A DNA stretch of 64,000 bases from Leptotrichia hofstadii (GTDB lineage: Bacteria; Fusobacteriota; Fusobacteriia; Fusobacteriales; Leptotrichiaceae): positions 372,001 to 436,000 of the forward strand of contig NZ_AP019823.1 of the NCBI RefSeq assembly GCF_007990525.1. Reading direction: 5' to 3'. The notes under the pieces are model-generated. The model saw nothing but the letters and a program-made list of their open reading frames with translations. It made no database searches and was not told where the DNA came from. Numbering within the stretch: the stretch's first letter is position 1; the number at the start of each line of letters is the position of its first letter. A program made the position numbers and the translations under genes. Below, piece after piece: positions 4,244 to 9,823 of the stretch.

Positions 4244-5065
4244 ATGAGATTCTCGACATATTTAAACAATGCCAAATGTATGGAGTGGAAAATAAATGCA
4301 CAGCAAGGAATATTATTTGCTTTGTTGTATGAAGCTCCAGCCTGGGCAAAAGAAGAAATAATTGAAAATAAAACTTATTATTTTGTATCAAGAAATTTGA
4401 TACTTGAAGAATTGCCGATGTTTTTTGAAAAATCTGATACTGTATACAGAAATTTAAAAGTATTGCAGGAAAAAGGGCTTATTGAATATATAAAGCAAGG
4501 CAAAAAAGATTTAATAAGAATTACCGCAAAAGGTAAAACTTGGAACGAGTTTAAAGATAATAACTCGGAGAAAAGTCCGAGTTCTGAACAAAATTCGGAA
4601 AAAAATCCGAATAATCTCGGAAAAAAATTCGACAAAGAGCCAAAAAACTCGGAAAAAAATCCGACAAATAATAATACTATATATAATTATAATAATACTA
4701 ATATATTAAATAATATATATAGTCAGGTTATTAATTATTTGAATAAAAAAGCGAACAGCAAATTCAAAACAACAAGCAAAGATAATCAAAAACATATAAA
4801 AGCTCGTATAAACGAAGGATATGGTTTTGATGACTTCAAAAAAGTTGTAGACAATATGTGTTCAGCTTGGAAAAATACAGAATTCGAGAATTATTTAAGA
4901 CCAAGCACCTTATTTGGTGTTAAATTTGAAAATTATTTAAACTGGAAAAAAACGGGAGGAAATAACAATGGCAACACCGCAAGAAATAAAAGATTTAATA
5001 CAGGAGAAAATAGCAAACACACAAAAAGACCAGACAGAACCAACGATGGAAACGGATGGAATTAG
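4244..5065 (+). CDS. Phage replication initiator (winged helix, phage replication C-terminal domain)
   Basis: The 273-residue protein has an N-terminal winged-helix region (residues ~1-90: MEWKINAQQGILFALLYEAP, then a helix pair ending RITAKGKTW), a repetitive NSEKNP-type linker (~105-145), and a C-terminal domain (~160-235: VINYLNKKANSKFKTTSKDN... LRPSTLFGVKFENYLN) of the conserved phage C-terminal family PF09524 type. Such proteins open the phage origin. The linker is encoded by four palindromic iterons next to an A/T stretch, as in lambda O. The DnaC-like loader gene overlaps it by 98 bp. Confidence 0.8.
   Translation: MRFSTYLNNAKCMEWKINAQQGILFALLYEAPAWAKEEIIENKTYYFVSRNLILEELPMFFEKSDTVYRNLKVLQEKGLIEYIKQGKKDLIRITAKGKTWNEFKDNNSEKSPSSEQNSEKNPNNLGKKFDKEPKNSEKNPTNNNTIYNYNNTNILNNIYSQVINYLNKKANSKFKTTSKDNQKHIKARINEGYGFDDFKKVVDNMCSAWKNTEFENYLRPSTLFGVKFENYLNWKKTGGNNNGNTARNKRFNTGENSKHTKRPDRTNDGNGWN
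4564..4735. other. Candidate phage replication origin: four iterons plus A/T-rich unwinding region
   Basis: Four 18-bp imperfect palindromes of the form CTCGGA-N6-TCCGAN start at 4564, 4594, 4616 and 4648 (the third is degenerate). Directly after them, 4666-4735 is almost pure A/T. Iterons inside the initiator gene followed by an A/T tract is the lambda-ori arrangement. Confidence 0.6.
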
Positions 5066-5720
5066 GGTAGAGAGAGTAAGTTTTAAGAAAATAGACAGGG
5101 AAAACAAAATAAGGGAATATCAAAATTTATCAAGCCAAATGATGTTTTATGATGATTACAAGTGCGATTTCAAAACTTCATACATAAAAAACGAAACCGA
5201 GAAAGAATACAAAAAATCTTTTGAGAAATTTTGCGAAAATTTTGAAAAATTTAGATATGAAGGCTTTGGAATTTATATGTCTGGAGAAGTGGGGACAGGT
5301 AAGAGCCATTACACAAATTGCATTTATAACGAGCTGAAGGACAAATATATTGTGTACAAGACAAGTTTGCAGACTTTATTTGACGAAATAATTGAAAAGT
5401 TTGGAGAGAAGACGGCTACAAGTTTTTTAAGGGAAAGATTAGGCAAAGCTGAAATAATCATTTTGGAAGATTTAGGAAACGAATTTATGAAAGACTGGGC
5501 AAAGCAAAATATGTTTTTCATATTTAATTTTCTATTCAATGCTAGAAAATCAGTAATTATAAATACAAACTTGTCAGACGATCAAGCAAGTGATTTTTTC
5601 AGAATAATGGGGACAGATAAGCTGTTTTCAAGGCTCAAGAGTAAGTGTAAATACTACAAATTTGACTGGGAGGACAGAAGAATAGGAATGTATAAGGATG
5701 AAATAGATAAATGGTATTAG
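4968..5720 (+). CDS. DnaC-like helicase loader ATPase
   Basis: The 250-residue AAA+ protein has Walker A GEVGTGKS (residues 106-113), Walker B IIILEDLG (163-170) and a sensor-1-like VIINTNLS (195-202). An acidic/Gln-rich N-terminal part probably contacts the helicase. DnaC/DnaI-type proteins load the replicative helicase at the origin; no phage helicase gene is seen, so the host DnaB is the likely partner. The start has GGGAGG and sits inside the initiator gene. Confidence 0.85.
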   Translation: MATPQEIKDLIQEKIANTQKDQTEPTMETDGIRVERVSFKKIDRENKIREYQNLSSQMMFYDDYKCDFKTSYIKNETEKEYKKSFEKFCENFEKFRYEGFGIYMSGEVGTGKSHYTNCIYNELKDKYIVYKTSLQTLFDEIIEKFGEKTATSFLRERLGKAEIIILEDLGNEFMKDWAKQNMFFIFNFLFNARKSVIINTNLSDDQASDFFRIMGTDKLFSRLKSKCKYYKFDWEDRRIGMYKDEIDKWY

Positions 5721-7975: not shown

Positions 7976-9823
7976 ATGAAATATAAGAAATTTAGAATAA
8001 GAAATTATAAGGCGATTAAAGATCTAACAATAGAATTGGATAATCAAAATTTGGTTCCAATAATAGGTTTAAATGAAACAGGAAAGAGCTCTATCTTACA
8101 AGCATTATTTGCATTTGATTGCTTTAATGACAAGCAATATAGTGGCGAATTTATAAATTATGACTATATAAAAAATAAATTCGAAAACAAACAAAATCCT
8201 ATTATCGAAGCCGAAATAGAAAATATAAATAAAAACGATTTGATAGAGAACGCAATAGGATATATAATTACACAAAAAGAAGATTATTTTATTTCTAACA
8301 GCCGATACAAAGATAATAGTGAATTTAAAAAGCATCAATATTTAAATTTTATTCGAGATAAATTATTAAGTTTTATGGAAAATGTATTTTTTGATATAAA
8401 AGAAGATAGTTTAAAAATCGCAAGAGAATTTTCAATTACTCAAAATGGTATGTACAATAATAGATATTTAATTTCACAATTAAAAATCAAGGAGTTTAAT
8501 GAAACAATATCAGTAAATGGTTATTCAATCGAAGAACTTTTATTTTATATACCAAAAGAAGAAATAGAACAATTAATAGGAGAATCAATTTTAAAATATT
8601 TACCTCATATAGTATATATTGATGATTTTAAAGATGCGATTCCAAATAGAATCAAAGAAAACGATGATTGGTATTTGTACATCAAGGAAATATTTTCTAG
8701 AAATAAAATGAATGTAAATGACTTTTTGAATAGCACTTTATCAGATAAAGGGACAATGCTGGAAGATATAAAATATGAACTTAATGAAAATCTAGCCAAT
8801 TTATGGGATAAAATGCATGAAAACAGAATAAAAGAAGAATTTAAAACTATAGAAATTGATTTAAAATACGAAGATAAAGAATTCCAATTTTTAATAAATG
8901 ATTTGAGAGAAAAAAGAGAAAACGGAAGACCAAGAACAGTGGTATTTCCAGTAAATATGCGTTCTAAAGGATTTCAGTGGTTTTTCAATTTTTTCATTAA
9001 AATGAAATATAATTGGAAACATATAAGTGATGAAAATTATGGGAGTATAATTTTATTGGATGAGCCAGGAGTATACTTACATACAACTTTTCAGTCAGAA
9101 TTAGTAAAAATATTGAAAGAATTATCGTTAGAAAACAAAATATTCTATACAACACATTTAGAAAATATGGTTAATCCAAAAGTAATAAAAATAAATCAAG
9201 TTCATATAGCAAAAAGAAAAAATGAAAAAGTGATATTAGAAAGAATCACTAAAATTGAAGACAATAAAAATTTAGGAGAAATGACACCGATAATAAATGC
9301 TCTAAAAATAGATAATTTTCCATTATTACATTTTAATGAAAAAATTATAATAACAGAAGGAATGACAGATAAAATATTTCTAGAGATGCTAAAGGAAATT
9401 GAATTGCTGGATACAAATATAAAGATTATTCCTGGTGTAGGAGTTACAAATCTTAGTATTTTAATAGGTTTATTTAGCGGAATTACAGATAATTATACTG
9501 TAATTTTTGATAATGATGATGAAGGAAGAAAATTTTTTGAAAAATATAAAAATGAATATGGTAAAAGAGAAAGTAAAAAATGGATATTACATCGGTCAAA
9601 GGATAAGGGAAAACAAGATATTGTATTGGAGAGTTATTATAGTCCTAAAATAAAAGAAATTTTAGAGAAATATCCGAATGGAATAAAAACAGGATTAATA
9701 GAGTTTTATTATTCTGCAACATCCGAAGAAAAAGAAATATTTTATAAAGAATTAAAAGATTTAAATAGAAAGGGAGAGGATATTCATATTCTTATAAATC
9801 AAATAAAATCAAAATTGAAGTAA
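7976..9823 (+). CDS. OLD-family nuclease (ABC-type ATPase plus TOPRIM)
   Basis: The 615-residue protein has Walker A GLNETGKSS (31-39), an ABC-type Walker B with ILLDEPGVYLH (~360) and a switch-like TTHLENMV, then a TOPRIM domain (~455-540: IIITEGMTDKIFLEML... VIFDNDDEGR) carrying the acidic E and DxD residues. OLD proteins are ATP-controlled nucleases; P2 Old blocks lambda growth, and related proteins serve in Gabija and retron systems. No UvrD-like GajB partner lies beside it, so a stand-alone class 1 OLD is likely. It has its own promoter and terminator inside the phage early region, and weaker A/T-rich codon use than the morphogenesis genes. Exclusion of rival phages is an inference. Confidence 0.85.
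   Translation: MKYKKFRIRNYKAIKDLTIELDNQNLVPIIGLNETGKSSILQALFAFDCFNDKQYSGEFINYDYIKNKFENKQNPIIEAEIENINKNDLIENAIGYIITQKEDYFISNSRYKDNSEFKKHQYLNFIRDKLLSFMENVFFDIKEDSLKIAREFSITQNGMYNNRYLISQLKIKEFNETISVNGYSIEELLFYIPKEEIEQLIGESILKYLPHIVYIDDFKDAIPNRIKENDDWYLYIKEIFSRNKMNVNDFLNSTLSDKGTMLEDIKYELNENLANLWDKMHENRIKEEFKTIEIDLKYEDKEFQFLINDLREKRENGRPRTVVFPVNMRSKGFQWFFNFFIKMKYNWKHISDENYGSIILLDEPGVYLHTTFQSELVKILKELSLENKIFYTTHLENMVNPKVIKINQVHIAKRKNEKVILERITKIEDNKNLGEMTPIINALKIDNFPLLHFNEKIIITEGMTDKIFLEMLKEIELLDTNIKIIPGVGVTNLSILIGLFSGITDNYTVIFDNDDEGRKFFEKYKNEYGKRESKKWILHRSKDKGKQDIVLESYYSPKIKEILEKYPNGIKTGLIEFYYSATSEEKEIFYKELKDLNRKGEDIHILINQIKSKLK

Follow-up and report, generated by a model that had tools for sequence, protein, structure and literature searches.

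The window, by which we mean the whole 64-kb stretch of DNA that was analysed (positions 372001-436000), is a piece of the chromosome of Leptotrichia, a mouth bacterium, and carries a prophage. Past the early region of this prophage lie genes for terminase, portal, head protease, major head protein and tail sheath, as well as tape measure, baseplate, tail fibre and endolysin genes. As shown in Table 1, the early region holds a replication initiator gene followed by the gene of a DnaC-like helicase loader. In the initiator, the Phg_2220_C domain scored 97.8 bits against a curated cut-off of 27 and TIGR02220 scored 112.8 against a cut-off of 66.65, and the PHROG families matching the protein include PHROG 678, named 'O-like'; neither PF06970 (RepA_N) nor PF04492 (Phage_rep_O) was present among its Pfam matches with E up to 1. 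The first 105 residues, which are predicted to form a winged-helix domain (hereafter the N-domain), matched no Pfam or NCBIfam family at its cut-off. The initiator and loader genes overlap by 98 nt (4968-5065), where one stretch of DNA, read in two frames, specifies the C-terminus of the one and the N-terminus of the other. Upstream of the replication genes, HATPase-like, DUF4325 STAS-like and PIN-domain proteins are encoded in a tight row (121-958 in the window, and also at L193:3279-4100), and PADLOC gave no match for the DUF4325 STAS-like and PIN-domain proteins of this row. The early region also encodes an OLD-family nuclease (7976-9823, plus strand) with AAA_15 and an OLD-like TOPRIM (PADLOC Old, E 6e-27), which by these matches is a probable anti-phage defence gene.

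Table 1. Features of the initiator locus, in window coordinates.
Feature	Position	Strand	Remarks
Replication initiator gene, 273 aa	4244..5065	+	phrog_428 E 3.6e-46; PF09524 E 3.8e-28
Codons of N-terminal winged-helix domain, aa 1-105, predicted iteron binder	4244..4558	+	AlphaFold2, mean pLDDT 92.8
Codons of recognition helix KSDTVYRNLKVLQE, aa 63-76	4430..4471	+	DSSP helix 64-76 in model
Iteron 1, CTCGGAGAAAAGTCCGAG (CTCGGA-GAAAAG-TCCGAG)	4564..4581		exact
Iteron 2, TTCGGAAAAAAATCCGAA (TTCGGA-AAAAAA-TCCGAA)	4594..4611		exact
Iteron 3, CTCGGAAAAAAATTCGAC (CTCGGA-AAAAAA-TTCGAC)	4616..4633		one mismatch, right arm; different reading frame
Iteron 4, CTCGGAAAAAAATCCGAC (CTCGGA-AAAAAA-TCCGAC)	4648..4665		exact
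A/T tract, predicted DNA unwinding element	4666..4735		64/70 A/T
Codons of Phg_2220_C C-terminal domain, aa 162-233	4727..4942	+	predicted partner-binding part; E 3.8e-28
DnaC-like helicase loader	4968..5720	+	phrog_50 E 2.3e-35; Bac_DnaA and IstB ATPase domains

Between the codons of the two domains lies an array of repeats whose unit we defined as TCGGA-N6-TCCGA, or 18 bp when one flanking base per side is counted. A first-pass annotation of this DNA had described four 18-bp palindromic units 22-32 bp apart in the linker codons, and we indeed found three exact units and one with a single mismatch at 4564-4665, the motifs starting at 4565, 4595, 4617 and 4649 with start-to-start spacings of 30, 22 and 32. 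The counterpart of the mismatched iteron 3 is exact in loci L004, L005, L006 and L014. Against the three exact units and the four with at most one mismatch observed in the window, dinucleotide shuffles gave expectations of 0.01 and 0.35, and none of the shuffles attained three exact or four near-exact units. Moreover, the exact motif is present in three copies in the 2.6-Mb genome, every one within this array, and no further copy was found elsewhere in the genome, the repressor region included. The annotation had also noted some 70 bp of nearly pure A/T after the iterons, in agreement with the 64 A/T of 70 bases that we counted from 4666; just three runs as A/T-rich as this exist in the 64 kb. 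By nearest-neighbour energy, the lowest duplex stability of the window falls on 60 bp at 4666-4726, directly 3' of the iterons.

The distribution of the motif was followed by searching IMG/VR at the DNA level alone, without any protein criterion, for pairs of exact units separated by 3-33 bp; this returned at least 120 loci. Among the matches listed, the units lay just 3' of N-domain codons in 108 of 111 evaluable loci; the N-domain was lacking in 12 of the 120 listed, nine of them cut at the locus edge beside the iterons and three being exceptions (L048, L098 and L027). Because one Pseudomonas-type cluster dominates the listed loci, the set was reduced to 27 clusters at 70% identity, with N-domain identity to the window down to 26%. 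Among 98 Fusobacteriota genomes, the paired motif was found in six, each time at a strong N-domain locus, while a seventh such locus (G022) ends at a contig edge; the reversed-pattern control had zero occurrences in the same 98 genomes. Homologues selected by protein only, from Mannheimia phage 587AP2, Psychrobacter phage pOW20-A, Flavobacterium phage FCL-2, Pseudomonas phages F116 and Medea1 and Pseudoalteromonas phage Y7, likewise have two to six exact units after the N-domain codons, and more distant Parabacteroides phages have ACGGATTTAAATCCGA. Thus, the conservation of iterons in homologues, which the first-pass annotation had named as a check, is seen in phages of three phyla, Fusobacteriota, Pseudomonadota and Bacteroidota. 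Matches were also listed in Paraclostridium and Clostridioides plasmids. Of the distant N-domain matches, L009 and L166 (Fusobacteriota) showed no recognised word, and L174 and L175 a weaker repeat. The parts C-terminal to the N-domain vary (Phg_2220_C, or parts matching phrog_391, phrog_6950 or phrog_6451), as do the neighbouring genes (DnaC-like loader, replication protein P or the replicative helicase, phage DnaB). Judged by these sequences, the iterons travel with the N-domain.

The three exceptions are of two kinds. In L048 (3812-3871) and L098 (4481-4543 and 5884-5930), paired TCGGA-N6-TCCGA units stand beside S24-type repressor genes with no initiator, and are possibly operators that share the same half-site; the word is therefore not exclusive to initiators. 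In L027 (3986-4073), which is GC-rich there, the units belong to an initiator-like gene that is unrelated and has an HNH motif embedded in it; they occupy its linker codons at a distance of 36 bp and are perhaps convergent.

Since the repeats lie in codons, they could be nothing but a repeated linker peptide (SEKNP), with the palindromes a by-product of repetition at the protein level. Iterons 1, 2 and 4 do share one frame and encode SEKSP or SEKNP, and SEKNPT-like peptides recur among iterons of the family that are read in frame 0. Iteron 3, however, is read in another frame, in which it encodes LGKKFD, so that the earlier claim of iterons encoding a repeated NSEKNP linker stands for three of the four. 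We then re-drew synonymous codons for the linker from the window's own codon usage in 200,000 trials, of which 63 contained two exact units and none contained the three observed; the protein sequence thus does not force the iterons. Across the family, 84 exact units from 23 N-domain clusters are distributed over the three frames as 42, 31 and 11, and the same DNA is read as three unrelated kinds of peptide (SEKNPT-, LGNKSE- or TRKNIR-like), indicating that it is the DNA and not the linker peptide that is conserved. In addition, the iterons of L130 extend past the end of the N-domain ORF. On the frame data and the codon re-drawing we rejected the linker-peptide explanation, to which we give practically no chance. 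The annotation was right that linker and predicted binding sites are the same DNA, and needs amending in that the repeated peptide is only a by-product, all three frames being used. Loci that keep the linker and lose the palindromes, its proposed counter-evidence, were not seen; we saw the reverse, palindromes kept while the encoded peptide changes. In the 23 clusters, the commonest iteron spacing is 22 bp, equal to two helical turns, and the central six bases are A-rich. In most clusters, G+C-rich ones included, the A/T dip beside the iterons ranks with the most A/T-rich 50-mers of its locus; it is weak or absent in L008, L026, L017 and L124. In two loci (L130:4404-5100 and L081:8895-9278), the N-domain frame stops within or just before the array and some iterons fall outside the N-domain ORF, as with a frameshift or split gene.

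Taken together, we consider it very probable that 4564-4735 is the theta-type replication origin of the Leptotrichia prophage, set inside its initiator gene and acting through dimer binding, A/T opening and helicase loading. The first-pass annotation had remarked that iterons and A/T tract look like a phage origin, and this is supported by what computation showed: the motifs, their conservation and constraint at the DNA level, their tie to the N-domain, the co-variation of recognition helix and iteron word described below, the low-stability tract and the gene order. By analogy with lambda O, SPP1 gp38 and pSK41 RepA, described below, the N-terminal winged helix of the initiator would most likely bind each TCGGA-N6-TCCGA palindrome as a dimer spanning the A-rich centre, and dimers piling up on the array would form a nucleoprotein complex that favours opening of the A/T tract next to it. 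The C-terminal domain, together with the DnaC-like loader encoded by the next gene, would then bring in the replicative helicase. Dimer binding, unwinding, loading and actual origin activity are inferences in this scheme. In the open literature we found no experiment on this N-domain family.

Iteron binders often autoregulate, and TCGGA-N6-TCCGA pairs near the S24-type repressor genes of L048 and L098 would fit palindromes that serve as operators for the initiator or a phage repressor in transcription control, with the origin elsewhere. We regard this as very unlikely, as the exact motif is confined to the initiator gene in the 2.6-Mb genome with none at the repressor region, the sites are about 320 nt inside the gene and beside the least stable DNA of the window, and they track the initiator N-domain in three phyla. 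A further alternative is that the array aids partition or incompatibility, as a centromere-like or copy-number site, and not initiation. Iterons can also control copy number in iteron plasmids, and some loci of a sister clade (see below) adjoin a ParA-like gene (L163); here, however, a replication initiator gene is followed by that of a helicase loader and has a tract of the unwinding type beside the array, which makes such a function in place of initiation extremely unlikely, while as an additional one it would be compatible with an origin role.

A replication origin inside the initiator gene has counterparts in several known systems. In lambda, the middle of gene O holds an A/T tract and four to six iterons that are inverted repeats (PMC7466680), and the plan that the first-pass annotation had ascribed to lambda ori, inverted-repeat iterons plus an A/T tract within the initiator gene, is what we found here. 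Lambda O with oriLambda and the O of Stx phages also resemble the window in having the helicase loader gene (P) next (PMC7466680), but the DNA-binding family differs by sequence, the loader here is DnaC/IstB-like and not P, and the iteron word is another. In Bacillus phage SPP1, the direct repeats of oriL to which gp38 binds are part of gene 38 itself and lie next to an unwinding element rich in A/T (PMC6316719). Like the window initiator, gp38 has a Phg_2220_C C-terminal domain and an origin within its gene; the part of the protein that the two share appears to be this C-part, and the SPP1 loader gp39 is of another type. The SPP1 locus contains no TCGGA-N6-TCCGA units. The tblastn match of the window initiator to SPP1 begins at residue 71, and phrog_428 is common to both, the SPP1 protein also matching DnaD-like families. 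Francisella phage KIRK Fhv_0043 is, by description, alike in being a Phg_2220_C protein, with internal peptide repeats and a putative in-gene origin with four repeats (PMC7924643), which is a prediction there too. In pSK41, the ori occupies the middle of rep, and the linker that this DNA encodes can be dispensed with (PMC5703833). The inverted repeats that make up RepA_N iterons converge on poly-A (PMC7145576), and the winged-helix N-domain of the initiator binds these iterons (PMC5703833, PMC7145576). RepA_N initiators (pSK41, pTZ2162) thus have the origin inside rep and inverted repeats around a poly-A centre in common with the window; unlike them, the window protein lacks a match to PF06970 and has another C-terminal domain, and theirs are plasmids and not a phage. 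Their RepA N-domains (4pql, 4pt7) are also among the top Foldseek matches of our N-domain model, with Z of 8.6 and 8.3 over 102/110 residues. MarR-type winged helices score equally, however, so the fold alone does not decide the kinship of the N-domain, and a PDB sequence search with it gave nothing below E 0.04.

Within the N-domain, K63, D65, T66, Y68 and R69 of the recognition helix are invariant in 37 diverse sequences, and the window protein fits a family defined by a KxDTxYR helix and TCGGA-N6-TCCGA units in the linker codons. By profile, N-domains forming a sister clade were found both in viral contigs and in members of the same order as Leptotrichia; in these, the same place in the linker is occupied by CGACT-N4-AGTCG iterons, 21-24 bp apart where adjacent, and [DE]V[IL]xRR or DALRRR stands in the helix in place of DTxYR. 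As a test of this pairing, relatives were fetched by the first 65 residues only, with no choice by DNA or helix; among them, CGGA words went with D[TS]xYR helices, while other helices had CGACT, CGGTA or still other words. In 58 of 59 clusters, helix columns being excluded from the clustering, the class of the helix agreed with the presence of a CGGA word, and so it did in 32 of 33 clusters selected by protein only. The lone exception, L164, combines a DTIYR helix with mixed sites (CGGATGAAAAGTCGG). With the helix masked, L026 falls inside the sister clade, to whose members it is 46-49% identical, against 26% for the window clade, and nonetheless has a DTVYR helix and TCGGA units. The masked tree implies five to six switches, a number that is uncertain, given 94 alignment columns, few well-supported branches and only two independent pairs that can be counted. 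We lean towards the view that the gene belongs to a large phage and plasmid initiator family lacking a Pfam or NCBIfam domain model, in which five recognition-helix positions would follow a simple code in recognising the iteron word (D[TS]xYR for CGGA; [DE]V[IL]xRR and DALRRR for CGACT; DRLYR for CGGTA), at a largely fixed CG-N10-CG geometry; the allocation of single bases to single helix residues is putative. If this code is true, the origin word could be predicted from protein sequence alone, and natural switches of the word would have left the remainder of the domain and the position of the origin within the gene as they were. Ten CGACT-N4-AGTCG units were also found at L179:4813-5111 in codons of another winged-helix initiator-like protein, which had no match to the sister profile.

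The architecture of an origin within its initiator gene is already known from lambda oriO, SPP1 oriL in gene 38 and pSK41, and such origins have so far been worked out for these single models. What is new is the N-domain without a Pfam or NCBIfam model together with an apparently readable helix-iteron code; there appears to be no earlier description of the iteron word being spread over three phyla, or of its co-varying with the helix, and the exact iteron strings were absent from the open literature, which was the scope of our search. Here one iteron word can be traced from Fusobacteriota to phages of Pseudomonadota and Bacteroidota. As this one word occurs in each of the three reading frames, constraint on DNA and on protein can be cleanly separated, and as the word changes together with the recognition helix, origins could become predictable for unannotated phages and prophages. 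Changes of origin specificity among initiators could be studied on the natural variants that the family would offer, and so could the exchange of C-terminal loading domains behind a single DNA-binding module. The origin module is constant, while what first contacts the helicase of each host varies (DnaC-like loader, P-like protein or a phage DnaB neighbour). Relatives of the window locus occur in Leptotrichia and in an L. wadei plasmid. Small plasmids carry broken copies of the initiator gene (L022 and L195, L. wadei plasmid pJMUB3934p2; L194, G000:C3), one of which retains some iterons; these copies look like decaying relatives.
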